The position numbers and the translations under genes are program-made. Shown in pieces: positions 5,456 through 46,739 of a stretch of 64,000 nucleotides of DNA (position 1 is the stretch's first letter; every line of letters begins with the position of its first letter). The notes beneath the pieces are model-generated. The model was not told the DNA's origin, did not search any database, and saw nothing but the letters and a program-made list of their open reading frames with translations. The stretch covers positions 46,488,192 to 46,552,191 of the forward strand of contig NC_133657.1 of assembly GCF_009905375.1 (NCBI RefSeq), given 5' to 3'. Source of the DNA: Apium graveolens (lineage: Eukaryota > Streptophyta > Magnoliopsida > Apiales > Apiaceae).

Positions 5456-5469
5456 CGGGACCTAACAAT

Positions 5470-5481
5470 TGGTATCAGAGC
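5470..5481 (+). other. Primer binding site, tRNA-iMet type (D)
   Basis: TGGTATCAGAGC, two bases after the LTR end, matches the complement of the 3-prime end of plant initiator tRNA-Met. It is the minus-strand primer site of copia elements. Confidence 0.9.
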
Positions 5482-6440
5482 TTACTGATTGATACACAAA
5501 TCAGGATCCTTAAATAAATTTATTTTATTAATTTGAATTTACATTAATTTATTTTATAATTTTGATTTAGGAAATTTATTTTATAAATTTATTTTAAATG
5601 AGTTTATTATTTAAACTTGAATAAGTTTATGTCTTAAACTTAATTTAAATAAAATTTATTTTATAAATTTGATTTAAATTAATTTATAATTTAAATTATA
5701 GTAAATAAGAATTTTTAAATTTAAATTAATTTTATGGTACATTATTGTTTAAAATCCTCAAAGTAAATACTAAGTGGGAGAGGGAATTAATATGAAATTA
5801 AATCCCATGGTCTCCATTATTGTTTGTATGTAATTTAACATAAAGACGAATATAAATTATATATACGTCACCCATCATGGCATATAATTTATGGTGCCCG
5901 GAATGTTATAGAAATTACTAGAACAAACTTCTTAAATTAATTTTTAAAAATAAGGAATAAATACGAATTTTCTTTATCTCTGATATGGGGCGATTTTGTC
6001 AAAAACGGGTTCATCGAACTTGTAAGGCTGTGGGTATTAAGTGAGACCGATGTGACTCCTCCACTACCTGGAAATCAAACCATTGATGAATATTGAATTG
6101 AAGTATTCTATTCAAGGAAAAATTATGAATATTGGAAGGTATACACGCCACCCATCGTGGCGTACCAAGTTCCATAGATTTTGAATAATTTAAGATTTGA
6201 TGATGGTATACACTTAGCTATGAAAAATAATATAGACCACCCCAACGTGGCATATTGTTTAGTAATAGGACTGAAGTAACATTTAAACAAATTTAGGTGG
6301 TATACATGTCACACATCGTGGCGTACCAGAAACTTATGGTGTTTAGATGTTAGTGCATTTAATTTTAATAATTTTTAGAGGAATCAATAGGTCTTAATAT
6401 TTAATGCACCCTTTTTTATGTGTAATGTGATGTTTTTTTT
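5482..6440 (+). other. Untranslated leader region, D/E junction and four small hairpins
   Basis: No gene is visible. The first 250 bases are extremely AT-rich and follow the D PBS. From about 5740 onward the sequence is the leader of copia E: a block at 5955-6036 matches the leader of element F (48628-48710). The D-to-E joint therefore lies between 5482 and 5955. Four short stem-loops of the type GCCAC-CCATC-GTGGC occur near 5866-5885, 6142-6168, 6229-6250 and 6303-6329. The second is perfect (7-bp stem), with outer GGTA and TACC that can also pair. The 5-prime LTR of E is absent. Confidence 0.6.
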
Positions 6441-7744
6441 ATGCATGATTCTCAGTATAAAATGGGCTTTAATCCACTATTCACCATACTTAAGGATAAC
6501 AAACTTACCGGACCTAATTATATTGAATGGAAACAAAATTTGGACATTGTGTTGACCGCTGAGGAGAACAAATTTTGCACTTATGAACCCAAGCCTGATC
6601 AGCCTGCTGCTGATGCTCCTGAAGATGAGAAAGAGTATTATAAGCGGTGGATTAAGGCTGATGAGATGTCACAATGTTACATTCTGGCAGTAATGTCGGG
6701 TGTTTGTAGCATCAACATCAGTCTATGGCCACTGATTCGGATATGCTCTTTAATCTCAAGGAACTTTTTGGAGATCAGAATAGGGCTGCTAGGCAAGTAA
6801 CCATGAAGGCTTTAATGAACACTCAGATGGCTGAAGGAACACCTGTAAGGGATCATGTTCTCAAGATGATGTCACATCTGAATGAGATAGAGATCCTTGG
6901 TGCTGAACTTGACGGGGAAACCCAGATTAACATTATCCTTATGAGCTTGTCCAAGATTTTTGAGCAGTTCCCCTTGAATTACAACATGAACAAGAGGCAG
7001 TATAGTCTCGCGAAACTGCTGACAGAACTTCAAGAAGCTGAAGGATTATTTTGGCAGAGTGTTCAAGTGAATTTGGCTGAGAAAGGTTCTTCCTCTAAGT
7101 CGAAAAGTATTAAGAAGAAGAAAAAGGCTCAGACACAGAAAGCTGTGAAGGAAGTGGGAGTTCAAGGTGGTGTGAAAAAGCCTAAGGGAAAGTGCTTCAG
7201 GTGCAAACAGTCAGGTCACTGGAAACAGGATTGTCCTCTTCCTAAGAAGACAAACAATACTGGTATGTCTATTTCTCTAGTTACAGAAACATTTATAGCG
7301 GCTATATCTACGAGAACTTGGTGTGTAGATACAGGAGCCACTGATCATGTTTGTAATTCAATGCAGGGGTTCCAGCTATCCAGAATGCTTAGAGATGGTG
7401 AGATATACGTGTTCATGGGAGATGCTACGAAAGTAACAGTAGTTACAGTAGGAGTTATTCATTTATCTTTTGGTTCTGATAGGATTTTGATTTTGAACAA
7501 TTGTATTTATGTACCTTCTTTTAAAAGGAATTTAATTTCGGTTTCTAAACTTGCTTTGGATGGTTATAATGTTTGTTTGGATCGCAATGTTTCTATTATG
7601 ATGAATAAACGAATTATATGTTCTGGTATATTGCAAGACAATTTGTATATAATTAATCCTAGTCAACCTGCACTGCAACTGCAATATAGGAAATTGAACA
7701 ACCATCTTCTAACTCTACTAAAAGAAAAGAACCTTCTAGTTTGA
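6441..7744 (+). pseudogene. Element E: gag and protease of a Tork/Angela-type copia
   Basis: The product would be the capsid/nucleocapsid precursor and aspartic protease. The ATG at 6441 opens a gag N-terminus with the block LTGPNYIEWKQNLDIVLTAE common in plant Tnt1/Angela-like gags. A frameshift near 6708 moves reading to the frame used from 6725. A CCHC zinc knuckle (CFRCKQSGHWKQDC, about 7194) follows a lysine-rich stretch. The protease site is WCVDTGATDHVC (about 7319; D-T/S-G triad present). Reading shifts again near 7735 into the integrase frame. Length and order are normal for one copia polyprotein, but it cannot be translated intact. Confidence 0.85.
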
Positions 7745-19874: not shown

Positions 19875-22800
19875 AAGCAAAGTGTCATGATCATTTCACA
19901 CTCCACCCACACCTCACTCTCTCCTCCCTCCCTCCTCCCTCTCACTCTCGGCCTCCCCCTCTCCTCTCGGGTTTTAGCCGAGAACCAACCCCCTCCCCTT
20001 TTCTTCATTCCTCATTCAAGCTCTCACCTTCTATACAAGTAAATACTACTTCCCATATCATGATCATATATACTTCAAAGAGTTTTGAGTAAAAAGTTTA
20101 AGTTTTAAGTTTGCATGTCAAGGTTTTAGTTAGAACTCAAAGTACAACCTTGATTCTTATGGATTTAAGGTTGTTTTTTAGAGGACTACAAGGAATGGTC
20201 AAGTGCCAAGTCTTGAGAAGGAAACTCTTGATGTTGAATGGCCATTTCCCTTCTATTTCATTCGGCCATGACCTTAAGGGAGCCGAATGAATGGTCCTTG
20301 AGATCATTCTTGTTGCTTTGTTCAATTCTTGTATGTTTATGTGGTAATGGCATGAATTTTGTAGTGAAAACTTGATGAAACTCTTTGCATGCTAAGTGAT
20401 CATCTAGATATAGCTTACTCTAGGCTTGCATGTCAATTTCATGATAGATTATATTTAGAAAATATGTTGTTTTGGTTTGTAAAACTTGAAGTTATGCATG
20501 CATGTGGATTTCTCTTGGAATGTTGAAAGATTTTGATCATTTGGAAAGATTTTGTTAGTAAGCTTTAATTTCAGTAGGGATAAGGTGTTAATCTTGATTA
20601 GTGCTCCTTGATGTATGGTAATAATTCGTGTATATATTTTATAAAAATACAGAACTTGTTATTTTCAAAAACTTGATGACTTGTAAGTTGTGAAATGTGA
20701 TTTCCTTTGTTTTGCCATGTTGCACCTTAGGTAAGGATGATCTCCACCAAGATTATTTTGAGTGAAAGGAAGTTGGTTCAGTAGATCACCATGTTTAAGT
20801 CTTGGTTTGGGTATTTGGGTTGTTGGTGGTTGAGTTTGTCAAGTAAAAACCTTGGAGAAAGGAGAGTTTTAGTTGCTGCAGAAAATCAGTTTAGTACCCT
20901 GAGGTTTAGAGTGAGTTTTGACCATGTCATTGATGTGCACTTTAAGGCCCAAGCCACCAGAAGCTAGAATTAGGAGTATATGAAAGGTTTTAGGTGTTGG
21001 TTGGAGGTTTCCAAGTCGTTTGGTTAGGTGCACAAGTGGAATCACAAAATCTGTCCAGCAGGGGACAGTTTTGTTGCAACTTAGAAATAGGAAGTTTTGA
21101 CCATGTCATGGGTAGGCCCTCATTAGGCCCTGTTGGGCCTTAGTTAGAGGGAGTGTCAGAGAAGTTTTTCCAACCATAGTTCATAGGATATGAGTTAGAA
21201 CCATGTGTCACAAGTTAATTCTAGTCAGGGCATTTTTCTGCCCAGAAAAAAAAGGGAACCATGGACTTTAAGCTTAGGCTTAAGGAGGCCCAAGCTAGAC
21301 CCTTGAGCCACATCAAGTTTGGGAGATGACCTAAGGTCAGGAGAGTCTTGTGTAAGAGTTTTGGAGGAAAACTAGTAGTTTAAGGGTGTCTAATGCACTC
21401 AAGAAACCATAGATGTCATTCTGAAATTTTTACCAGTGAGCACTTTCACTTATCACATAATTTTAGAACACTTAGGAGTGAGATCTAGGTTGACCACTAT
21501 GGTGGTAAGATAGTATAAAGTCAGTAGAGAAAAAGGCCCAAGTGAGGGTCAATAGGTCTTGGATAGTTTAGTAAAGGCACATCGAGTTAGGAAGCCAAAA
21601 TTTGGAGACTTTGTCTAAGTATAGCGACCAAGTGACTTAAGTTGTGAGTCGAGATCATCCAAGCCTAGTGTTGCATTATGGTGTGTGTGATATTATTTGG
21701 TATTAAAATATGATATGTGAGTATATGTGGCTATGTGTACGATTATATTTATAAGGTGAATATAAATTGCGTGCATATAGGCCTAAGTGCCATTTGTGTT
21801 GTAAATAGGTTAAGTTGGTGATAATATATTATAATGAGGATTATTATTATTATGTAGGATCTCGAGACGAGGGTAAACTTGCCATAAAGGTTGAGTGAAG
21901 CTTCCAGTTGCTCCTACCAGCCAGACCAGACCAGCCTTTCTCAAGGCAAGTGATTCAACTTGTCTTTCGTATTCACTATAAATAGTTCATATATATTGAT
22001 GCAACTATCCTGAGTCATTTTGATATATTTGAATCAAGCGTATCTTATGTTTATCTTTGAATCATATAGAAATGCCATGAACCCTCGAGTACGTATTGCA
22101 AGTAGTTCAAAAGTCTTATCATGATAGTATATTAAAGTAATTTGAATGTCATGATAAAATAAAGAGTTATTACAGCACTTGGTTGATCCTCTTGATTACC
22201 ATGCTAATGATTCCTAAGTATTGATATCTCATCCTGATACTTGAACCCCTATAGAACCTTACCTTGAAACCTGAAAGCCAGATATTTATCAAAGTTGTCC
22301 CTAATTGATTGATACCCCTCTTTCCTATCCTAAAGCTTGACAATTCTGATATATCCTGAGTTAAAGATCATTTCTTCATACCTTAACACCCTTAGTATTT
22401 ATGAAGCTTATCTTCTTGATGTTCTAGTACTTGTACCTTATCGAAAACCATTGCTTTAAGCCTAGTTTGGCATTACTCTTTCATAATATCCAATAGCCTT
22501 GCTAAATTTCCTTGTCCTATTTCTTATATATGGAAACCTTTCAGTTACCCTAATAGAGTAAAGTCTAGTGGATCATGGCCTTGAGATTTTGTGACATATT
22601 TCCAGTGTTTCAAGTTGATCTATAATCCCTTGATAAAAATGTTTACAGTCAAAAGAGATATTATCATAAATCGACATCAGTTTTTTTAAAATGATTAAAA
22701 TGTGAATTTTTAGTCCCAAAGGGGGATAAATGTTTTCTCTGAATAGTGGATCTGGACTGAGACGCGAGTCCTTTTCACACTTATTATGTAGGCTTGAAAG

Positions 22801-23092
22801 TTGCCTAAGGATCCCATTAATGTTTTAGAACCCAACGAGGTTCGGGATTACTTCGCGGCTGATCACCGGCTGTAATCCGTAGCGTCATAAAATGATTTTG
22901 ATTAAGATATGATTTTGAAATTGTTTTGATACAAGCAAATGATGCCATCACCCAAAGTTTTATCTCTTGTTATCATTGGTTATGTCTTAACATTGTCATT
23001 CTTTAATATATATCTCGATTTATGTTTTATATCGTATTGTTTAGCACTTGTTGAGCATTTGGCTCACTTCTTGCTTTACCCTGATATTTCAG

Positions 23093-23173
23093 CTAGCAGC
23101 TATGGTTAGATTCAAGCAGACCGCCCGTAAGACCTGTGACGCTGATGCATATGTTCGAGCTCAGGTAGAATAA
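23093..23173 (+). CDS. Exon-like mini-ORF with histone H3 tail-like N-terminus (G2 LTR)
   Basis: ATG at 23102 opens 23 codons beginning MVRFKQTARKTC, with TAA at 23171-23173. Against the mature H3 tail (A-R-T-K-Q-T-A-R-K-S) it is identical at R2, K4, Q5, T6, A7, R8 and K9, with threonine for S10. The ATG lies 9 bases after a good acceptor (GATATTTCAG, ending 23092), and the frame reaches a donor-like CAG|GTAGAA at 23164/23165. An exon of 72 bases with 21 coding codons is thus possible. It sits in the LTR, 166 bases before the PBS, so a spliced RNA using this donor would drop the PBS. An equivalent ORF is in the G3 LTR at 60692. Whether it is translated is unknown; chance resemblance cannot be excluded for one copy but is less likely for two. 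Confidence 0.5.
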   Translation, partial: LAAMVRFKQTARKTCDADAYVRAQVE

Positions 23174-23344
23174 GAGATAGTTATGTGTGAGGATTCGATA
23201 TTAAAATCAGTTGTAATAGATGGTAGTGTTGGGCTGTTCCAAACCCTAAACTGTAAGATCTTGGATTATATTGTGTTTACTTATTTTTAAATATTGTAAT
23301 AGGTATATTTAATTTGCTGGTTAAGTTGGGGGTGTGACAGGTTT

Positions 23345-23356
23345 TGGTACCAGAGC
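23345..23356 (+). other. Primer binding site of G2
   Basis: TGGTACCAGAGC, a one-base variant of the initiator tRNA-Met PBS, five bases after the LTR end. Confidence 0.85.
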
Positions 23357-23485
23357 TACGGTTTAGAGTCCCTGGACAGCTCAAAATAAGTTATAGGATT
23401 TATGTATAGGCTATAGATAATATGCGAGAGAGTAGGTTAAGTAAATTTATTATTAATACTCCTCTTATTGGTTTGTCAGTAAAGG

Positions 23486-23824
23486 GTGCATTCCTCGTCA
23501 TCCTCTGGGTCGGACGATACTATTACTTTCTCCGTGTATGCTGAGTTGAGGCGCGAGTTTGACATGCTTCAGGGCAAGTACGACCGACTGAAGAGCGTGT
23601 ACCCGGACAGCCGAAACTATGAAAGGAAGCCCAAGGAGCAGATGACTGCGAGACTTGAGACTTTGGTTCAGTACGTCAACACTAAGCTTGAGGAGATTCC
23701 ATCGCACCGAGACCGCACCAGCCAGTATGTCATCTAGATGGTGGTAGATGAGCTCCAGAGTATTGTGAAGACGCTTCGAGAGGAGAAGACTACCAAGCCC
23801 CGTTCAGATGGAGTGGAGCCTTAG
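23486..23824 (+). CDS. Small upstream ORF of G2, serine-rich start and coiled coil, no ATG
   Basis: A frame from 23483 (stop TAA just upstream at 23480) to TAG at 23822-23824, with one internal in-frame TAG at 23735. It begins with a serine run (HSSSSSGSDD) and then shows heptad-like charged segments (YAELRREFDMLQGKYDRLKS; LETLVQYVNTKLEEI; VVDELQSIVKTLREEK) suggesting a coiled coil. It has no ATG at its start and follows an acceptor-like GGTTTGTCAG (ending 23479), so it looks like a downstream exon. GC and codon use are higher than in the flanks. It lies between PBS and gag, where Tekay elements normally have only a leader. I do not recognise a family. Confidence 0.45.
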
Positions 23825-24133: not shown

Positions 24134-25483
24134 ATGCCACCCAAAAAGAAGAACCCAACAACCACTTCCACCACAGACCCAAATATTCTTCGATTACTGG
24201 AAACTTTGCAACAGCAAACCAATGCTATAGCTCAAAAACAACTAACCCTTCAACAACGAATTGAAAACTAAGATAATTGTGAACTACACCAACCACCCGA
24301 ACCAACAGTACCACCTAGACAAGTTGTCACTTTCAAGGCTTTTCAGAATGTGAATCCACCTGCATTTCATGATACCACTGATCTAGTAATAGCTAACACA
24401 TGGATTAAGGAAATGGAAAGGGCTTTTGAGTTGGTACAGTTAGGAGACGATCAGAAGATGCCATATGCTACCTACTTCTTGAAGGGTGAAGTCATCTATT
24501 GGTGGGAATCAGTAAAAGCTATGGAAGCAACTCAGCAGGTTTCTTGGGAGAGATTTAAGAAGTTATTTCTGGAAAAGTATTACTCTAAGTACATGCAGAA
24601 TCAGATGGAGCTTAAATTTCTTGAGTTGAAGCAAGGGAACATGACTGTACTAGAGTATGAGAAGAAGTTCACTGAGTTGTCAAGGTTTATGACAAAGTAT
24701 ACCAGCACTGAGGAGGAAAAAGTAAAGAAATTTCAGCAAGGATTGGAGCCTTGGATCACAGATAGAGTGGCTATGTTTGAGCTTGAAACCTATGCGGGAG
24801 TAGTACAAAAAGCTGCTCTGATTGAGAATAATGGGATGCAGTCAAGGAAGGAAAGGGATAATAAGAAGAGGAAGGTTCCATTTTATGGAGAAAAGTCTGA
24901 AGCCGGAAGTTCACAAGATCAGAATGTAAAGAGAATTGGATTCCATAAGGGCGGAAATTTCCAAAAGAAAGGGAATTTGGGCAAAAGGCAAGAATCAAGG
25001 GGGGACAACCAGGCAAGCCAAGGACAAGTTGGAGAAAATAGGTTCCAGAGACCGGAATGCAAGCACTGTGGAAGAAGGCACCCTGGAGTGTGCAATAAAC
25101 TGAGCATGACGTGCTATAGGTGTAACCAGAAGGGACATTTGGCAAGTGAGTGCAAGATGCCGAAGCCAGGAGTTACGTGTTACAAATGTGGAAAGACTGG
25201 ATACATAGCTAGGGAGTGCAAGGCAACCGGACCAGTCAAAGCTCTGATGAATGTGGCAAGTACCAGTGCAAGCGTGCCAGCCGAGGTATTGGCTTTACCT
25301 CCACCACCTACAACAACCCTGCAAGCAACAGCAAGGACATTCGATCTGAAGATGAAGGATGTTGTTCAGAATTCTAAGGTGATAGCAGGTACACTTTTAC
25401 TCAATAATATCAAAGCAAAAGTATTGATTGATTCGGGAGCAACAAGATCTTTCATATCAGAAACTTTTGTTGATAAACTTTAA
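24134..25483 (+). pseudogene. G2 gag and start of protease
   Basis: Ty3/gypsy gag. The ATG at 24134 (MPPKKKN) follows an acceptor-like CATATTTCAG. A TAA near 24268 interrupts the frame, then it is open from 24269. Capsid-like region: WIKEMERAFELVQLGDDQK, WWESVKA, FLELKQGNMTVLEYEKKFTELSRF. C-terminal basic region, a CKHC...C cluster and two zinc knuckles (CYRCNQKGHLASEC, CYKCGKTGYIAREC). The protease active site VLIDSGATRSFI (about 25423) has the D-S-G triad. TAA at 25481-25483. Confidence 0.88.
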
Positions 25484-25943
25484 TGTGATAAAATGGTTAT
25501 GAGCGAGGTAGTAAATGTGGTAATTGCGAACCAAGAGAAGAAACCTGTGAATCAATTCTGTCCGAAGTGTGAGATTGATATTTCGGGGTATAAGTTTTCA
25601 GCCGACTTGATACTCTTCAAGTTGGGAGAGTTCGATATAATTTTAGGAATGGATTGGTTAGGGAAGAATAACGCCCAGATTAATTGTAAGACCAAGAAAG
25701 TGTATTTAAAGATGAAGAGTGGAGAGAAGGTAGTATTTAAGGGGTAGAGGCAAGAGCAACTATTTCTTACAATCGTTCAGGCTAAGAAGTTACTTAGAAA
25801 AGGTTGTGAGTCGTTCCTAGCTTATGTAGTGGATTCAGAAAAAGGCAGCCCCAGCATAGAAGATATTACCAGATCGACAAACCGAGTTCGAGATCAACCT
25901 TGCTAACGAGTTCGAGATCAACCTTGCTAACGAGTTTCCCAAT
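25484..25943 (+). pseudogene. G2 protease C-terminus and PR-RT linker with local duplications
   Basis: Same frame as gag, 25493-25747 (FSADLILFKLGEFDIILGMDWLGKNNAQINC), the usual protease C-terminal block, then TAG at 25745-25747. A frameshift lies before 25944. Bases 25867-25932 repeat pieces of the sequence at 25930-26010: the stretch coding [11 protein letters not shown] appears upstream of its normal site and its end appears again, so the same 20-40 bp are present up to three times. Confidence 0.8.
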
Positions 25944-28798
25944 GTGTTTCCAGACGAACTACCAGGCTTACCACCAGATCGACAAACCGAGTTCGAGATC
26001 AACCTTGCTCCAGGCATGGAACCAGTTTCAAAGGCCCCATATAGGATGGCACCAGCAGAAATGAAAGAGTTGGCGAGCCAGCTACAAGAATTGTTGGATA
26101 AGGGAGTGATACGGCCAAGTACGTTGCCATGGGGAGCACCTGTTCTGTTTGTAAAGAAGAAAGATGGGAGTATGCGGCTATGCATAGATTATCGGGAGTT
26201 GAATAAGGTAACGATCAAGAACCGCTACCTGCTACCAAGAATAGATGACCTATTTGATCACCTGAAGGGAGCAAAGTGCTTTTCAAAGATTGACTTGAGA
26301 TCGGGATACCATCAATTAAAGATCAAGGAAGAAAATATTCCCAAGACAGCATTCAGGACCAGATACGGATATTATGAATTCTTAGTAATGCCGTTTGGAT
26401 TGACTAATTCCCCAGCCGCGTTTATGGATCTGATGAATCGAGTATTTAGGAAGTATTTGGATAAGTTTGTAGTGGTATTCATTGATGACATCCTTATTTA
26501 TTCTAAGTCGGAAGAAGAACATAAGCAACACCTCTGGATAGCATTGAAGATACTTCGTCAAGAGAAGTTGTATGCCAAGTTTTCCAAATGTGAGTTTTGG
26601 TTAAAGGAAGTTCAATTCTTGGGGCACGTCATTGGAAATGAAGGAGTTAAAGTGGATCCGGCAAAGATTGAGGCGGTTATGAGTTGGGAAAGGCCAAAGA
26701 CTCCTACAGAAGTGCAAAGTTTTCTAGGATTGGCAGGATACTATAGAAGGTTTGTCAAGGATTTTTCGAAAATCGCCACGCCATTGACCAAGTTAACCAG
26801 GAAGAATCAGAAGTTTGATTGGAGTGCAGAATGTGAGGATAGCTTTCAAGAGTTGAAACAGAGGTTGGTAACAGCTCCGGTGTTAGTACTTCCAGATGAC
26901 CAAGGAAACTTTGTGATATTCAGCGATGCTTCACATAAGGGATTGGGCTGTGTGTTAATGCAACACAGTAAGGTGATCGCGTATGCGTCAAGACAGTTGA
27001 AACCGCATGAGTTGAAGTACCCGACGCATGACTTGGAACTAGCCGCCATAGTGTTCGCACTTAAGATTTGGACACAATACCTCTACGGAGAAAAGTGTGA
27101 AATCTACACAGATCACAAGAGTTTAAAGTACATTTTCACTCAGAAGGAGCCCAATATGAGGCAGAGGAGATGGCTGGAGTTGATCAAGGACTATGACTGC
27201 TCGATAAATTACCATCCTGGAAAGGCAAATGTTGTGGCCGATGTTCTAAGCAGGAAGGAGAGATTGAATATGATGGCAACACCAAAGGAATTGTCTGAAG
27301 AGATCAAGAGATTTGAACTGGAACTTTGTGATTGTGGAAAAGTTGAAGAAGTTTGTCGCGTAATGACTTTTCAGCCAACACTAGTGGAAAGGATAAAGAA
27401 ATGTCAAGAAGAAGTAATGGAGAAAGAGAGGAATCAGCTAACTGGAGAGGAGATTAATACTCAAAAGGATGAGCAAGGGATACTATGGTTTTCCTCTAGA
27501 ATTTGGATTCCTCGTGTACCTGAATTAAAGAATGTGATCCTACAAGAAGCCCACAATTCGAAATTTTCAATCCACCCGGGAAGCACTAAGATGTATCGGG
27601 ACTTAAAGCAGAATTTTTGGTGGCCAAATATGAAGCGAGACGTGGCGGAATGGGTTGTGAAGTGTTATACTTGTCAGAAAGTGAAGGCAGAACATCAACG
27701 ACCAAGCGGATTAATTCAACCCCTAAAGATTCCAGAATGGAAATGGGAAAATATTGCTATGGACTTTATAGTGGGACTACCGCGAACGAAATCCGGACAT
27801 GACGCTATATGGGTTATAGTTGATTGTCTTACGAAGTCAGCGCATTTCCTTCCAATTAATGAGAAGTCGTCATTGGACAAATTGGTTCATCTGTACGTGC
27901 GTGAAATCGTACTAAGACATGGAGTACCCGTATCGATAGTTTCAGACAGAGATCCCCGATTTGACTCGAGATTCTGGAAGTAATTTCAAGAAAGTCTTAG
28001 CACGAAGTTAAATATGAGCACGGCGTACCACCCGCAGACTGATGGTCAGAGCGAAAGGACAATTCAAACAATCGAAGACATGTTGCGTAGTTGTGCAATC
28101 GATTTTGCAGGAAGTTGGGACGACCACTTGCCATTGATTGAATTCTCTTACAACAATAGCTATCATTCCAGTATTGGCATGCCACCATACGAAGCTTTGT
28201 ACGGGCGAAAATGTAGATCACTGATAAGTTGGGATGAAGTAGGAGAATGAAGGATTTTCGGCTCGGAATTGGTGCAACAGTTGCATGACACAGTCAAGTT
28301 AATTCAGAAAAGGCTACTTGCTGCTTAAGATAGATAAAGGAAGTATGCGGATCCAGTGCGTAAGGATGTTTGATTCCAAGTTGGCGAAGCTGTTTTGCTG
28401 AAGGTGTCTCCTAGAAAAGGGTTGTCTAGATTTGGCAAGAAAGGGAAGTTAGCACCTAGATATATAGGTCCTTTTAAAATTTTGAGTCAAGTGGGGAAGG
28501 TAGCCTACGAGTTAGCCTTACCACCTCAGTATCAGCATGTGCATAATGTGTTCCATGTGTCGTTGCTTAAGAAGTACAATCCTGACGCTAGCCATGTGAT
28601 AGAATATGAACCTATAGAAATTCAGGCAGACCTGTCATTTGTGGAGCAACTTGTCAAAATACTCGACTGGCAAGAGAAGAGTCTTAGAAACAAGTTAGTA
28701 AAGTTAGTAAAAGTACTTTGGAGGAACCCTAAGGTCGAAGAATCGACTTGAGAGTTAGAGTCTGATATGCGTTTCCGGTATCCTCATCTGTTCTCTTA
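25944..28798 (+). pseudogene. G2 reverse transcriptase, RNase H, integrase and chromodomain
   Basis: Chromovirus pol in Ty3/gypsy order. [38 protein letters not shown] box 26478-26489. RNase [39 protein letters not shown]. Integrase: HHCC ([12 protein letters not shown]...CYTCQKVK), D in [10 protein letters not shown] in VSDRDPRF, E in [10 protein letters not shown]-terminal GPF and chromodomain end ([18 protein letters not shown]...YPHLF). Frame 25944 is kept throughout, but in-frame stops occur at 27981, 28248, near 28325-28370 and 28750 (TGA where the family has Trp). Chromodomains of this lineage are thought to steer integration to H3K9-methylated chromatin. The element is Tekay/Del-like by these motifs. 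Confidence 0.9.
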
Positions 28799-28835: not shown

Positions 28836-31800
28836 AATCACAACCATTGGAAAACTGGCAAGGACGAAACTGAAAAGAGAATGGAACTTTTTCTTTGATT
28901 ACATCAGTAGGTGTTTCTTGAACAAAACAACAAATTTTGATGCACTTCCATCTACTTCTCTGAAAATTAGGTACTTTCTTCTTTACTTTGGTAATTTTGA
29001 TTATGGTAATACAATACTACAATTCATAATTTCTAGGAGAGTTGATGCATTAGGAGTTATAGGGTATACTAGATTTCTACAACTAATTTTCAATTTTCTA
29101 TGCCCTAATGCTATTTTTGATGATGATGAATTACTTCCTGTATTTCAAATTTCTGAAAAAGCAATCACTGATCACATTAAAAGGGAGGAAAAGAATAAAT
29201 TTTTAGGACCTCCCTTTCTGCCTAGAAAGGTTAGGCAATTTCTGTTAAGAAATAGACCTACTCCTACACTAGTGCCTGCAAATCCTGATGTTAGCACCTC
29301 TGTCACAGTTCCTGATACTGAGAATCAAGAAACTACCCATCTTCTTTCTAACCCAAGCATTTTTTTCTTCCAAATAGCAAACACACCCGGCCTCTAAATT
29401 CGCCTCCTCTGCTGTCTCTCAAAAGACATCAGTTGTACCAAAGAAAAGGCTAGTTAAGAAATCTATCACTTCTGGACAAAAAGCTAAACAAGCCTCACTG
29501 AGTGAGAGTGGGAAGAAAGAAGAATGCTTTCCAGTCAGGAAAAGAAGACTGATCATGCAATATGATTCTGACTCCGATGATCAGATGCCAATAAGGTCGT
29601 TGTCGAAAACCAAGAAATCCAATGTCACACATCCCAATGACTCTGTTGATACTACTAGAATGAAGGAGCCAACTACTGATGCTAGTGCTCTGCTCGATAA
29701 GCTTCCAGTGATCACAACACCTGTTGTGCTCAAGCCAACTGAAGAGAGCAAGTTGAAAAGAAAAAGTGAAAAAGTAATTGGTTATATCAGAAAGAAGAAA
29801 AGACTCAGTCTTCTGCCAAGGATGTCAGTACACAAGAACCTAAATCTTAAAGGGATTTAGCAACTGCAATACATTCAGTCACAAAAGAACCATCTTTTCA
29901 AAGGGAAGATGCAGACAAAGCGGCTGCACAAATCATTGTTGATATTTCTCAGAGTGATCTTCTTGCTGACTCTGCTCAACTACTACAGGAAAAGAAAGCT
30001 CATCAGGAGGTACTTTCAAAAGTGGATGAAATCATTAATGATCCTATTTTTGAGAAGAGCACACAAGAACCTTCACCAAGCTTTGCTAAAGCAGCTCACA
30101 TTTCTCCGACTCCACAAGAACCATCAGTTCAAAGTACTGATGCTGGTCTCCCACCTACTGTTGACAAGTCAATTCCTGATGTTACATAAGCTCCTACTGG
30201 GTTTCATCTTTCAACTGAGCTAGCTACTATTGATGATCCTCTACTGATTGCTAGTTTGCAAAAGCATCCTGATGTGTTGTTTGTTCCTCCACTATCATCA
30301 CTTCCTCTTGAGGACTCACCTTCAGGTGTTGCTAACTTTCTCATATGTTCTCATGTTTGTATGATTATAAATAGTCTCTTCTTTTAGGTTAACTCTATTT
30401 ATATAACAAGCATACTACTCTTCTCAGCCATCTCTTATTTCTTTGCTAAATGCGCGGTTGAGCTTTCTGTGAGACTATGTGAAAATATCATGTGCGGAAA
30501 TTAATTTTTTTTTCTTGAGTGGCAGTCTCCTGTACAGGCAAAAGGAGAGGTAGCTTTGAGACAAGAATCTTATAAGTTTTTTTACTTATCAAGTTTCTTC
30601 TATGAGAACAATATTACTCTTGAAAGTAATATATTGTGTGAGAAGTGATGAGATCACTTGAAAAGAAAAGAGAGATATAGGTGTTACCATGTTTCTGTTT
30701 CAGGATCTCATCAGCCACCGACACCTAGTTCTAATGATTTCTGTAAAGGCAAGATAATTCTGCCTCATTCTGCAAATTCTTCTGAGGGTCTGTCTGATTC
30801 TGATGATGACAGTGATAAGGATGATTCTAACACAACTCAGCTGAAGACTGCAATTGATGCATCTAAGAAGTCCAACGTTGGTTCTTCTTCACACTTTAAT
30901 GAAAATCCTTCTTATTACAATGCTGATGCTGAGCATTTTTGACAGATATAATGGGATTATAAATGGAAACTTGCATATACTTCTATCTCATCTACTGTTA
31001 TCCTGTAACATATTCATCGCGCCTATGATGAAATTCAAGCTCCTGATCTGAAGTTGCATCTTAAGGCCTCTACTATTTCTGTTAGAGGAATTCACTCTGC
31101 CTTTGACGATATGAAGAGGTCCCATGTTGCTGTCAAAGAAAAAATTGATGGATTTATGCTCCACACACCAACCTCAGCTAAAATTATGAGTGTGAAAACG
31201 ACTATTAAAGGTGTTGTTCAATCTCAACACAACATGGATTCTAGACTTTCCTCCTTGGAAGATAAGGTCTCTTCTATAGCTGACAAACTGGATGCTCTGT
31301 TTTCTCTTCTTTCAAATACTGATGCCAAAAAGGGGGAGAAGGCAGTTGCTACAAAATGTACACCAGATTCTATTCAAAAAAAGGATAAAGATATTGATGA
31401 TGATGGTGATAAGAATCCAGTTACAAATGTTCATATTGCTTCTACTACTCAACAACCTCAACATTCCAAGAATACTGGTTCTTCAAGACAAGGGAAGTCT
31501 ACTGGTGTTCATAAAGCTAAGCATAAGACTACTACTGATACTCCCGAGGATGATAAGGTTACAATCTCTAATTTAGCAGATGCTAAAGGTTTGTTCTTTC
31601 CTTACATACATAAGGAAACGGGTGAAGAGATTATCTTGTACTACAAAGACAAGAGGTTTGAGCAAAAGAATGCTAGGAGTGCTCTTGGGTCTATAACTGA
31701 AGAATTTCCTGATCTAACAGCTGAAGAAGCAGTTATGCAGCAAAAAGAGTTAATGGCTCAAATTGAAGCCGAAGCTAACACTTCTAAAGGAAGAGGAAAA

Positions 31801-32824
31801 AGAGGTGGAAGATCTACAAGAGCTAGAGGAAGAGGAGGAAGAGGAAGGACTTTTAAACCAAGTCAAGTGACTATATTTAATTCTTCATTTCTGAATGTTC
31901 TATCCAGAGAAGGTTATGTTCCTGTACAAGGACATGAAGGAACTGAAGAAGTTCAGAAGCCGGAAGAATTGATTGTTCAAAGGAAGAAAAGATCAGCCAC
32001 TGACATTGATCAAGCTGATACAACAAGTCAGAATGTAACTCTTGAAGCAGACACAAATCCTGAGGTAAAAGCAGGTCCTGATGCTGTGAACCTGATAACT
32101 GATTTTGACTCTGATGAAAAAGTGATCGAAGCATTAAATGAGTCAGCTCTTGCTACTATAGTCACTCCTCATATTTCAGAGGTTGATGAAAAAGAAAGAG
32201 TTGACAGAAGGAAAGCTGATCAAGCATGCAAAGATTATGTGTAGAGATTTTTCAAATCAAAAAGAGAGCTATGGCATAAAGCAAAAGGAAAGATTCATTA
32301 TTTGTCCACAAGTTATGCTCCTCTCAGCTAGAAGGATAAAAGATGGAAATACATTTATACATTTGATTATCCTAAAGGGTTCAAGCATGTTAAATTTATG
32401 TCAGCAGGGTTAAGGGATTCTATTTCAGAACAGGAAGATTTTGATAAGTCCATCAAGAAACCTTCTTGGGTGGAATACAATGAAAAAATGAAACTTGTCA
32501 AATCTAGAACCAAAGGAGGCATTGGTCATTCTGAAATGGAGACTCTAAGACCTGATATGCTGGATACAAATACTCTGACTAAAAATATTGGTGAAAGAGT
32601 TTCTCCTTCACATCTTGAGAAAGTTGAAGCTGTGAAGATTATTTATAGAAAGATAAATGATAATGATGCCAGAGAAGAGATTCTGTACTTCTTGAGGGAT
32701 GGTAAAGTAAAGAGCTTTACATTGCAGCAACTCCTAATGAAGATTATGACAGAATTGAAATATATTCCCTATCTTCTTAGAGTTCAGAACAATGTCACTA
32801 GAAACTGGTCTTCTATGCTACTTG
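28836..32824 (+). pseudogene. Element A: ORF3, the extra ORF downstream of pol
   Basis: Homologous to ORF3 of C: TTIGKL...LKREWNFFFDYISRCFLNKTTNFDALP matches the C segment KVGQLKRPYIRREWSLFFDCITRAFANKCSNFDAIP in order and spacing. Then come a long serine/proline/lysine-rich middle with acidic runs (SDSDDQM; SEGLSDSDDDSDKDD), a basic cluster (PVRKRRLIMQ), a coiled-coil-like part (31054-31330), a glycine/arginine-rich stretch (GRGKRGGRSTRARGRGGRG, about 31788) and a C-terminal block (YFLRDGKVKSFTLQQLL...NVTRNWSS). Missing are the first roughly 127 residues. Broken by several stops; 30326-30703 looks like an intron. No signal peptide or membrane span is evident. Cut at 32825 by F. Confidence 0.75.
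30326..30703 (+). other. Candidate intron inside ORF3 of A
   Basis: Exonic ...CCT TCA G | GTGTTG, then 378 bases rich in T and A with stops in all frames, ending GTTTCTGTTTCAG | GA TCT CAT. Removing it joins two open segments in the same frame (PS-G-SHQPP). The borders also form a 6-bp direct repeat (TTCAGG), so a small insertion with target duplication is the alternative. Confidence 0.45.
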
Positions 32825-33567
32825 TGTTAGTGTTTGTGCCCTAGAGGCAACACTATGATATTTTAGTTTAAGACATTAGGATTATTAATGTTTATGTTCT
32901 ATCGATTATTCTCTTTATAATTTATTAATTCTTAATTTACTGTGATATAAATGTTAGATTAATAAATGTCCTTGGAATATGATATGCAATTTTATATCTC
33001 TAAGTACGTGACTTAGAAATGAGATTATTATTAAGGGACAATAATAATGCATTAAGACTGGTGTGTTTGTTGACTGATGATCACATCTCATTGATCATAG
33101 CTATAATGATACTAAAGTCAAAAACACAGGCATATGTATATATACATGGTGCTAGACAGACCCAATGTGAGATTCTACATGTCTGTTGTGTCATAAGTAA
33201 TTCTCACAGTGATAATGATGTAATGGTCCTTAGACCTGAAGTCATTATATTTCTATACGAGAATTAATATACATTGATTCCATTAAAAGTTATCCTTGAC
33301 CGGATAATGGTAAAAGTGGACATTGGGTATATTATAAATCGTATGAGAAATATGAATGATCTAGATGGGATTTAACCTTCCTATTTTAGGAGTGATATTA
33401 TTGGCCTCTTGTGTGAGCTAGACTATGAAATGCATGGCCACACTCAAATGTTAATTTGATATGATAGTCTACTCATTGATTAAGGAAACTTGGATTAAAC
33501 TATGATGAGGATGAAACATTATATGCCTCTAGTTTAATCTATAATATTTGGTTAAAGGGATTATATT
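32825..33567 (+). repeat. 5-prime LTR of Angela-type copia F, first part
   Basis: Starts TGTTAGTGTTTGTGCCCTAG, the GCCCTAGAGGCAA opening typical of BARE/Angela-type LTRs, directly after ORF3 codons of A. It is interrupted at 33567 by element B and continues at 46740. The 5 bases 33563-33567 (ATATT) are the target site duplicated by B. Confidence 0.85.
33563..33567 (+). repeat. Target site duplication of B, left copy
   Basis: ATATT immediately before TGTTAG. The identical ATATT follows the other LTR at 46735-46739. Confidence 0.9.
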
Positions 33568-33591
33568 TGTTAGTCCCTAACAATGCAACAA

Positions 33592-33621
33592 GAATTACAG
33601 AAGGGGGGTTAAATGTAATTC
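33592..33621 (-). other. Stem-loop with C-rich loop (B 3-prime LTR)
   Basis: GAATTACA (33592-33599) pairs with TGTAATTC (33614-33621). On the element strand the loop reads TTTAACCCCCCTTC. The other LTR copy (45250-45277) keeps a 7-bp version. Confidence 0.7.
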
Positions 33622-34174
33622 AAGTAAACTTTTTCTGAATTACAAAATTTGTAACTCAAACTATATATATAAGTGTTTTGATTTGCAAGGTGCAGAATCA
33701 CAAGTTATATAAATAAAAAACACAAAGTAATAAAAACACAAGTCTTTAAAACTTTCTGGTGGATTTGAAGGTATCCACCGAATATATATATATCGATTTA
33801 AGAACTCTGTGAAGACAAATTGTCTCACAACTGCTTTACAAGTGAACAAACAAACTACAGAGAAATTCTTAACAGTTACAGCTTTTTCTATTTCTCTTCT
33901 AAAAATGTTTGCTTAGTTATTTGTTTCACTAGCTACACTTGGTTTATATATCACCAAGTTTACATGGTAATAAGACAAGATAATAAAACAAAACTATCAA
34001 GTCAAACTCCATGCTGCTTCACTACTCTATTCCAGCATACTTGAAAATCTTCTTAACTTGCATGGAAATGGTAATGCTTCTTTGTTCTTCATTTCCTGTT
34101 AAACAGGCTCCCACATTCCTTTTGCAAACACCCAACATATGTAACTGTCTTGTCACTGTCAACAGATATTTGAA

Positions 34175-34312
34175 TTGATCATCCGTCGGGTACATACTTG
34201 TCATCCATTGGGTAGCTTTGTTGATCATCCGTCGGGTAGCTTTGTTGATCATCCGTCGGGTAACTTCGTTGATCATCCGTCGAGTTGCTTTGTTGATCAT
34301 CCGTCGTGTAGC
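34175..34312 (-). repeat. 24-bp tandem repeat, six units, in B 3-prime LTR
   Basis: Units begin GATCATCCGTCGGGTAGC and end TTTGTT, with changes in units 2, 4, 5 and 6. The homologous array in the other LTR (about 46285-46408) has five units. The core ATCCGTCGG recurs elsewhere in the element. Confidence 0.9.
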
Positions 34313-34645
34313 TATTTGACACTTGACTTCGTTTCCCTTATGCAAAATTACAAGACATCTCATATTTACAATTAATCAGCCTATTCTGCATATCTAATAA
34401 TAGTCAACATGACTCATATGCTACTACAGGATCTATACAAAGTTGTTCACAAAAATGTGTTACAATACTTATTGTTACATAAGCTACTCACTCGATGGAT
34501 GTAAAATCATCATCCGTTGGGATTATATTGAGTCATCCGTCGGGACTATATTTGATCATCCGCCGAGTGCTACATTTTTCACCAAGTTAAATCTACTAAG
34601 GTGTTTTGTTAATGTAATCATCAAGTTCACAACATATTCCCAACA

Positions 34646-34656
34646 ATCTCCCCCAA
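34646..34656 (-). other. Polypurine tract of element B
   Basis: On the minus strand TGGGGGAGAT directly precedes the LTR start TGTTGGG. Confidence 0.85.
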
Positions 34657-45222: not shown

Positions 45223-45455
45223 ATTGTTAGTCCCTAACAATGCAATAAGAATTACAGAAGGGGGGTTGAATGTAATTATAGTAAACATTTTCTGAATTAC
45301 AAAATGTTCTAACTCAAACTATATATATAAGTGTTTTGATTTGCAAGGTGCGGAATCACAAGTTAAATAAATCAAAAACACAAAGTAATAAAAACACAAG
45401 TTTTTAAAACTTTCTGGTGGATTTGAAGGTATCCACCAGATATATATATATATGT

Positions 45456-45859
45456 GGGTTAGGTTCTATGGAGACCACTTTTTTTTGGAGACCTTGGAGA
45501 CCATTTATGTTCTGCAAGTTAAATATTGAATAAAAACATTGCAAAATATATTATTTTGCGAATCATGCTCTACAAAGATCCTTTTTTATTCAAAATCTTG
45601 AATATCATATATGTACTGCATGTAAAACATTACAAAAATATTTTATTCTGCAAAACATGTTAAGTTTGCAGAACATTTGTTCAGCTTACGGAACATACAC
45701 ATTCTACTTATTAAACTTAAATGATCTTCAATAATTTTAATAAATTAGTGATACTCGTAAAACATACTTCACAAAATAATATATTTTATAGTGTTTTGAT
45801 TGCAGAACATATGTGGTCTCCAAGGTCTCCGATGAAAACGTGGTCTCCATAGAACTTTC

Positions 45860-45862
<3 letters not shown>
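45456..45862. mobile_element. MITE-like element with about 45-bp terminal inverted repeats
   Basis: The left end reads GTTCTATGGAGACCAC followed within 45 bases by GGAGACCTTGGAGACC; the right end is its inverted copy (45814-45855). The interior is AT-rich with TGCAGAACAT-like subterminal repeats and no ORF. It sits in a TA microsatellite of the B LTR, and the other LTR lacks it. Target duplication cannot be read because both flanks are TA repeats. Superfamily not determined. Confidence 0.8.

Positions 45863-45908
<46 letters not shown>
45863..45908. repeat. (TA)n microsatellite
   Basis: About 20 TA units next to the MITE-like element. The homologous site of the other LTR has only a few. Confidence 0.9.
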
Positions 45909-45912
<4 letters not shown>

Positions 45913-46734
45913 TTAAGAACTCTGTGAAGAACAAATTGTCTCAAAGCTGCTTTCCAAGTGAACAAACAAACTATAGAGAAATTCTTAACAGTTACAACTT
46001 TTTCTATTTCACTTCTAAAAGTGTTTGCTTAGTTATTTGTTTCACTAGCTACACTTGGTTTATATATCACCAAGTTTACATGGTAATAAGACAGGATAAT
46101 AAAACAAAACTATCAAGTCAAACTCTATGCTGCTTCACTATATTCCAGCATCTTTGAAATTCTTCTTAACTTGCATGAAAATGGTAATGCTTCTTTTTTC
46201 TTCATTCCCTGTTAAATAGGCTCCCACATTCCTTTTACAAACAGCCAATGCATGTGACTGTGTTATCACTGTCAACAGATATTTGAATTGATCATCCGTC
46301 GGGTACATGTTTGTCATTCGTCGGGTAGCTTTGTTGATCATCCGTCGGGTAGCTTTGTTGATCATCCGTCAGGTTGCTTTGTTGATCATCCGTCGGGTAG
46401 CTATTTGACACTTGACTTCATTTCACTTATGCAGAATTACAAGACATCTCATATTTACAATTAATCAGCCTATTCTGCATATCTAATAATAGTCAACATG
46501 ACTCATATGCTACTACAGGACCTATACAAAGTTGTTCACAGAAATGTGTTACAATACTTATTGTTACATAAGCTACTCACTCGATGGATGTAAATTCATC
46601 ATCCGTCGGGACTATATTGAGTCATCCGTCGGGACTATATTTGATCATCCATCGAGTGCTACATTTTTCACTAAGTTAAATCTACTAAGGTATTTTGTTA
46701 ATGTAATCGTCAAGTTCACAACATATTCCCAACA

Positions 46735-46739
46735 ATATT
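46735..46739 (+). repeat. Target site duplication of B, right copy
   Basis: ATATT, identical to 33563-33567. Confidence 0.9.

Follow-up and report, generated by a model that had tools for sequence, protein, structure and literature searches.

The window analyzed here is a 64-kb stretch of the genome of celery (Apium graveolens), which has a size of 3.33 Gb. On its forward strand lies the 5′ LTR of a retroelement. The 3′ end of this LTR, TGTGACA (23333..23339), is the same motif that stands at the LTR end of related loci, and after the LTR end at ~23339 comes a primer-binding site (PBS) of the tRNA-Met type (TGGTACCAGAGC, 23345..23356, forward strand); the PBS of several relatives is TGGTATCAGAGCC. 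Further along the same strand are gag and the start of the protease (24134..25483; Pfam Retrotrans_gag, Ty3_capsid, zf-CCHC, and RVP_2), the reverse transcriptase, RNase H, and integrase zinc-binding domains (25944..27983; Pfam), and the integrase C-terminus (28374..28751), in which a Tf2-1-like SH3 domain is followed by a stretch that, by eye, we take to be chromodomain-like. The Pfam chromodomain was not found in this integrase tail of the window copy at E ≤ 1. Retrotrans_gag, RVP_2, RVT_1, RNase H, and Integrase_H2C2 occur in this order and the PBS follows the LTR, as in Ty3/gypsy LTR retrotransposons, and the element is referred to here as chromovirus-like (Tekay/Del-type); its clade is presumably Tekay/Del, a name taken over from an earlier sequence-only reading of this DNA. 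In the window copy, the gag frame is interrupted by a stop codon at 24269-24271. The LTR stretch at 22500-23500 has no second copy inside the window, and accordingly no 3′ LTR was found there. Near the start of the reverse transcriptase frame, an exact 37-nt direct repeat occupies 25868-25904 and 25973-26009, ~100 bases apart, and an open frame of 396 amino acids without a Pfam match spans 31054-32244, roughly at the place expected for the 3′ portion of the element.

Inside the 5′ LTR, positions 23093-23173 read LAAMVRFKQTARKTCDADAYVRAQVE followed by a stop. The sequence-only reading had drawn attention to an ATG-VRFKQTARK frame with a donor-like CAG/GTAGAA here (slashes mark junctions), and both are present exactly as it described: ATG-VRFKQTARK occupies 23102-23131, and the frame from the ATG at 23102 reads VRFKQTARKTCDADAYVRAQ and then CAG/GTAGAA, with the donor GT at 23165-23166. 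The resulting H3-tail-like N-terminus, MVRFKQTARKTCDADAYVRAQ, is designated exon 1 (23102..23164, forward strand). In unspliced RNA, exon 1 would be read through into VE and a stop (23165..23173, forward strand), giving a 23-amino-acid peptide. Upstream of exon 1 is an acceptor-like GATATTTCAG (23083..23092, forward strand), which is a plausible candidate; many copies of the same family (family A, below) have ATTACAG at this place, and a further exon upstream of exon 1, joined through this putative acceptor, is possible.

Translated in six frames, the window contains KQTARK once. When the window was simulated 1000 times under a first-order Markov model, covering both strands and all frames, 0.002 occurrences were obtained per 64 kb, and 0.0 with an ATG at the H3 position. 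A codon-degenerate pattern for M-x-R-x-KQTARK had 4353 + 4259 = 8612 exact matches genome-wide, a count to which host H3 genes contribute, as do many elements with both their LTRs, and the MVRTKQTARK pattern had 78 + 68 = 146; the reversed control gave 0 matches in each case. A chance match of KQTARK was rejected because of the 0.002 expected per 64 kb in the simulations and the 8612 matches versus 0 for the reversed pattern.

The sequence-only reading had described the frame as a mini-ORF. However, the predicted donor has a phase-matched partner acceptor at 23479/23480, which gives the "mini-ORF" the appearance of an opening exon in a longer gene. The predicted intron (CAG/GTAGAA ... TTTGTCAG/; 23165..23479, forward strand) is 315 nt long, has phase 0-0, and holds the LTR end and the PBS. 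Exon 2, including the stop codon (23480..23824, forward strand; frame 23480-23821 plus stop), lies between the PBS and gag and encodes a Ser-rich linker and a helical region; in the window copy it is broken by two in-frame stops, and in complete family-A copies it is mostly 114 or 118 amino acids long. Of 38 family-A copies, all retain the donor GT and 37 the acceptor AG; in a second family (B), 14 of 16 copies retain each site. Reference copy L031 has a GC content of 46% (exon 1), 35% (intron), and 53% (exon 2).

Annotated proteins carry the same arrangement. A profile search with exon 2 returned eight named plant proteins, five of which (two from Apium and three from Heracleum) have the predicted exon 1/exon 2 junction, reading ...VRAQ/Q(S/R)AHSSSS... 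in P0011 (AgCh_012955) and P0019 (AgCh_013390) of Apium, and MVRTKQTARKSSNGV...IAQ/Q(R/C)AHSSSS... in P0013, P0014, and P0015 (POM88_001164, POM88_013611, and POM88_025981) of Heracleum sosnowskyi. The three Heracleum models consist of the two-exon protein alone, and the Apium models are fused to other sequence; the support from Heracleum comes as protein models, with element context there assumed. The three named models without the predicted junction are P0018 (Apium) and P0020 (Heracleum), which contain exon 2 and lack exon 1, and P0025 (Apium), which starts with MVSTKQTARK and is joined at another point. A broader exon-2 profile matched 20 proteins, the named ones being solely from Apium and Heracleum. 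P0011, P0018, and P0019 are celery gene annotations fused to element pieces, likely an artefact of unmasked short exons.

The H3-like frame of the window thus most likely represents the first of two exons in a gene that crosses the PBS and has its second exon before gag, and the most likely product is a spliced accessory protein of about 135-155 amino acids (about 135-150 in celery; 155 as annotated in Heracleum). Direct splicing of exon 1 into gag (acceptor 24129) was ruled out, as the frames do not join. The free 23-amino-acid peptide is unlikely as the main product given the exon-2 junction, and it could still arise from unspliced RNA. The earlier proposal of a short H3-mimic peptide or exon is therefore supported in part: there is good evidence that the LTR holds a coding exon resembling the H3 tail, and the sequence it encodes most likely forms the start of a spliced protein and not just a free peptide.

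Copies were compared in three families, each collected through exon 2. Exon 2 of the window element matches 6700 candidate places (family A), of which 150 were scored, ~125 of these 150 without a stop inside the match, and 39 loci (L029-L048 and L050-L068, the window's own included) formed the sample. Exon 1 was found upstream of exon 2 in 38 of these 39 loci, in some with stops, L061 being the exception, and the exact R2,K4-K9 core is present in 24 of the 38 gap-free loci. For family B, collected through exon 2 of L049, 150 of 6019 candidates were scored and 26 fetched; exon 1 is gap-free in 19 of the 26, with the exact core in 10, and nine of the 26 fetched copies read exactly MVRTKQTARK, the H3 tail with A1 changed to V. 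Family C, collected through exon 2 of P0026 (150 scored of 6579 candidates, 30 loci), has a gap-free exon 1 in 21 of 30 loci and the exact core in 10, as MVRFKQTARK, typically followed by STGDAEAYLRAQ; many of its scored exon-2 places carry stops (TAG listed). The ATG frame is thus kept in relatives, a comparison that the sequence-only reading had proposed as a check, and exon 2, conserved in many family-A copies and likewise found in families B and C, amounts to an additional ORF in the 5′ region ahead of gag. L049, which combines a diverged exon 2 with an identical exon 1, was set aside as a case of such divergence, its aligned LTR stretch being 96% identical to that of the window, and it is probably a recombinant; it was left out of the family tallies for diversity, variant counts, and between-family identity, and was included in the 39 copies used for pN/pS.

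The resemblance to histone H3 is in the H3 register and extends beyond the window copy, which is a diverged, broken member differing from H3 by T3F, S10T, and T11C. The 13 H3 genes of the same celery genome read MARTKQTARKSTGG. The longest match to them is in L076 of family B (MVRTKQTARKSTG), with 11 consecutive H3 residues, and Heracleum P0013 (MVRTKQTARKSS) has nine. The H3-like reading of this exon is stronger than in the earlier note because family B and Heracleum have RTKQTARK. L145 (MVRMKQTARKSTGG) has 10 consecutive H3 residues, L146 reads MVRIKQTARK, and L139 continues as ...KSTGG in a copy with T6 changed to I; the KQTARK of L144-L146 is not independent evidence, because these loci were picked by the exon-1 pattern. 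L144 itself (C1:4545115-4546000) opens in an H3-like manner (MVRFKQTARKTSGDSGYAYRKMLEQ) and ends differently, and no exon 2 was recognised in the 0.8 kb retrieved. At position 3, T, F, M, and I all occur, and most copies have a residue other than T (MVRT in 146 of the 8612 matches). Codon matches to the 13 H3 genes were significant in 0 of 9 copies (p 0.098 to 0.91), giving no codon trace of direct H3 capture. The MVRTKQTARK DNA pattern had 0 matches in viral contigs and 0 in prokaryote genome contigs, and a gag piece searched in viral contigs had no relative there.

Variation among copies was used to assess constraint. In family A (38 copies), diversity at the three codon positions amounts to 0.051/0.029/0.123 for exon 1, 0.037/0.022/0.092 for exon 2, and 0.082 for the intron; the family-B values (16 copies), from a set that takes in old and frameshifted copies, are noisier, at 0.129/0.159/0.248 in exon 1, 0.132/0.110/0.158 in exon 2, and 0.127 in the intron. 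For exon 1, 39 A copies give a pairwise pN/pS of 0.23 at codons 2-10 and 0.13 at codons 11-21; after two broken copies were dropped, 15 B copies give 0.31 at codons 2-12 and 0.53 at codons 13-23. When only gap-free copies are counted (38 of 39 A, 19 of 26 B, and 21 of 30 C), the ratio of nonsynonymous to synonymous exon-1 variants is 55:13 for those seen once versus 29:26 for those seen at least twice (Fisher p 0.001), p-values in these variant tests being approximate because copies share ancestry. Shared exon-1 variants fall below the neutral expectation for replacements (p 0.004) and singletons somewhat above it (p 0.08), and in exon 2 the shared-versus-rare test points in the same direction in families A (p 0.006) and B (p 0.017). 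The check on replacement rates in the ATG exon that the sequence-only reading had proposed did not refute it, in that older variation is poor in replacements. Together, these patterns indicate purifying selection on exon 1 and exon 2.

Within families, the variant test does not single out the H3-like codons (shared variants at codons 2-10, nonsynonymous to synonymous: A 6:3, B 1:6, C 4:2); the comparison between families does. Over all gap-free copies, the R2,K4-K9 residues are 0.84 (A-B), 0.86 (A-C), and 0.82 (B-C) identical between families, compared with 0.27, 0.59, and 0.46, respectively, for the last ten residues of exon 1. A set of seven representatives, chosen by hand for a readable exon 1, shows identities of 0.96 (core), 0.46 (last ten residues), and 0.56 (exon 2); this choice raises core identity above the 0.82-0.86 obtained with every gap-free copy. 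T6 and A7, both uncharged, are no less conserved than the basic residues; R8 is the weakest, kept in 11 of 21 family-C copies and otherwise mostly C or H, the pattern expected from CpG decay.

Some copies have multiplied with a broken gene: five of 30 family-C loci share one exon-1 frameshift, and seven of 30 share an exon-2 stop at one place. The gene is therefore not needed in cis, and the spread of broken copies suggests either help in trans or dispensability. The family-C lineage with the common exon-1 frameshift (L109, L112, L113, L117, and L128) multiplied after loss of the H3-like tail and forms a natural contrast group.

In an AlphaFold2 model of the Heracleum protein (23 sequences; mean pLDDT 70, pTM 0.45), residues 1-39 lack secondary structure, mostly at low confidence, and helices are predicted at 40-70, 78-99, 106-128, and 139-153; the model of P0002 is poorer (pLDDT 58). 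Neither the PDB nor a set of viral models contains a fold relative of the helical part at E ≤ 0.001, Pfam gave nothing above cut-off in the accessory proteins tried, and the histone fold (PF00125) was not found in P0011, P0012, or P0013. When the Heracleum protein was compared with PDB sequences, all of the best 60 of 86 matches were to H3-family N-termini (H3, Cse4, and H3/CENP-A chimeras); these matches are weak singly (best E 0.06) and align within query residues 1-49. The exon-1 peptide alone had 0 matches in the PDB, probably being too short.

The interpretation we favor, and hold to be probable with considerable reserve, is that celery chromovirus-like elements encode an H3-tail mimic on a helical carrier, serving as a decoy or recruiter of H3-tail binders. 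Exon 1, in the LTR just before the PBS, would supply an unstructured N-terminus copying H3 residues 2 to 9 (to 12 in the best family-B copy), with position 3 often changed, and exon 2, between the PBS and gag, would supply the Ser-rich linker and helices. Splicing from the LTR would remove the PBS, and the spliced RNA would therefore be a dedicated mRNA that is not itself reverse-transcribable. Valine, like alanine, is a permissive second residue for removal of the initiator methionine, and the protein, once its initiator methionine is removed, would display VR-x-KQTARK. The displayed tail may bind host readers and writers of the H3 tail, with components of the H3K9-methylation silencing loop as the likeliest partners, and the helices may bring several tails together; acting as a decoy, the tail would weaken silencing of the element. 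A decoy for the H3K9-methylation loop appears the likeliest use, with recruitment or nuclear import as rivals. The more far-reaching proposition, to which we would give an even chance, is that the LTR exon of a retrotransposon lineage provides an H3-tail N-terminus that floods or redirects the H3K4/H3K9 reader-writer machinery, and that this would be the first transposon-encoded H3 N-terminal mimic, present in thousands of copies and selected across genera.

Several rival readings are less probable. The H3 tail binds importins, and the H3-like tail might instead serve the element's own traffic, either as a nuclear-import signal or as a handle for the integrase or heterochromatin readers that would direct it to target chromatin. 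A helical protein predicted to begin with the basic KQTARK segment would suit such a role, and 5′ accessory proteins of other Tekay elements are predicted to be nuclear (PMC11728184). However, T6 and A7 are as conserved as the basic residues, beyond the needs of a simple basic signal, and the integrase tail of the window copy has no Pfam chromodomain; this reading is judged unlikely, though it is the strongest of the rivals. A less probable, doubtful reading is that the accessory gene is real and constrained and the H3 match coincidental, its N-terminus being unrelated to H3-binding proteins. The varying position 3, the divergence of later residues, and the lack of a codon trace of an H3 gene are what would be expected if this were so, but it would have to accommodate consecutive matches of nine residues in Heracleum, 11 in L076, and 10 in L145 (the last picked by motif), all in the H3 register, and the fact that, between families, conservation within exon 1 is highest at the H3 residues.

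Readings in which the peptide plays no part fare far worse. The location in the 5′ leader and the stop soon after the donor would fit a short upstream ORF or a leader RNA element, acting in translation control or as a splicing enhancer; the three-base periodicity in family A, the relative excess of synonymous shared variants, and the in-frame junction to a second constrained exon speak against it and leave it very improbable. Hardly credible at all is a chance six-residue match in non-coding LTR sequence, even for a short motif sought in many frames, given the simulated and reversed-pattern expectations above and the recurrence of the motif in several families and two genera.

Two components of this system are already known, namely the 5′ accessory ORFs of Tekay elements and viral mimics of the H3 tail, and their combination appears to be new in the literature searched. 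The Tekay 5′aORF, described in sunflower Tekay 13-2, rice RIRE3, RIRE8, and Retrosat-2, and maize Tekay (PMC11728184), is, like the celery gene, an extra gene between the 5′ LTR and gag whose product combines helices and disorder, and the function of these proteins is reported there as unknown. Unlike the celery gene product, the sunflower protein is 402 amino acids long, with no amino-acid similarity to the grass ones (PMC11728184). The main text of that report contains no occurrence of "histone", "splic-", or "intron", and no histone-like start or LTR exon is described in it. Viral H3-tail mimics include influenza NS1 (ARSK), the hepatitis D antigen, adenovirus protein VII, and the contested SARS-CoV-2 ORF8 (ARKS) (PMC10208167, PMC10833455); as in the celery gene, a foreign protein copies a short H3-tail motif, and the viral ones are thought to engage host chromatin factors. 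In contrast to these, the match described here reaches up to 9-11 consecutive residues and stands in the H3 register where the protein is predicted to begin; its carrier is a plant LTR retrotransposon, and the motif has thousands of genomic matches. Among the titles and abstract openings searched, no description of a histone-tail-like exon in an LTR retrotransposon was found.

Splicing or separate RNA pools are used by other plant LTR retrotransposons, as in the spliced RNA of BARE (PMC3735527) and intron splicing in Ogre (PMC6317226). Unlike in these, the predicted celery splice would make an accessory protein, start inside the LTR, and remove the PBS. The anti-silencing accessory protein of Vandal DNA transposons is named VANC. 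Accessory proteins of Vandal elements protect from silencing (PMC11728184), as proposed for the celery protein, the likeness drawn being one of function and the mechanism proposed here being histone-tail mimicry.

Plant transposons are silenced largely via methylation of H3 lysine 9. H3K9me2 is described as a major mark of silent plant transposons (PMC12085086). If the proposed role is true, the element's own copy of the tail would be a molecular weapon or disguise, the element may imitate the very signal used for silencing it, and its study would offer a way to ask how such elements filled a 3.3-Gb genome. The proposal also gives a concrete, testable answer to the role of the 5′ accessory gene in such elements. 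The natural H3-tail variants (V1, F3, and T10) would be useful for studies of reader and writer specificity, and short LTR exons of this kind, missed by ORF-length filters, can conceal real genes.

Two further regions of the window were noted. At 5461-6900, a different LTR element has a tRNA-Met-type PBS (TGGTATCAGAGC) after CCTAACAA and then, by eye, a Ty1/copia-like gag frame, and the first element of the window may therefore not be a second chromovirus. Direct repeats at 33567-34647 and 45224-46736, ~12 kb apart and 92-94% identical, enclose minus-strand ORFs and are probably the LTR pair of another retroelement.
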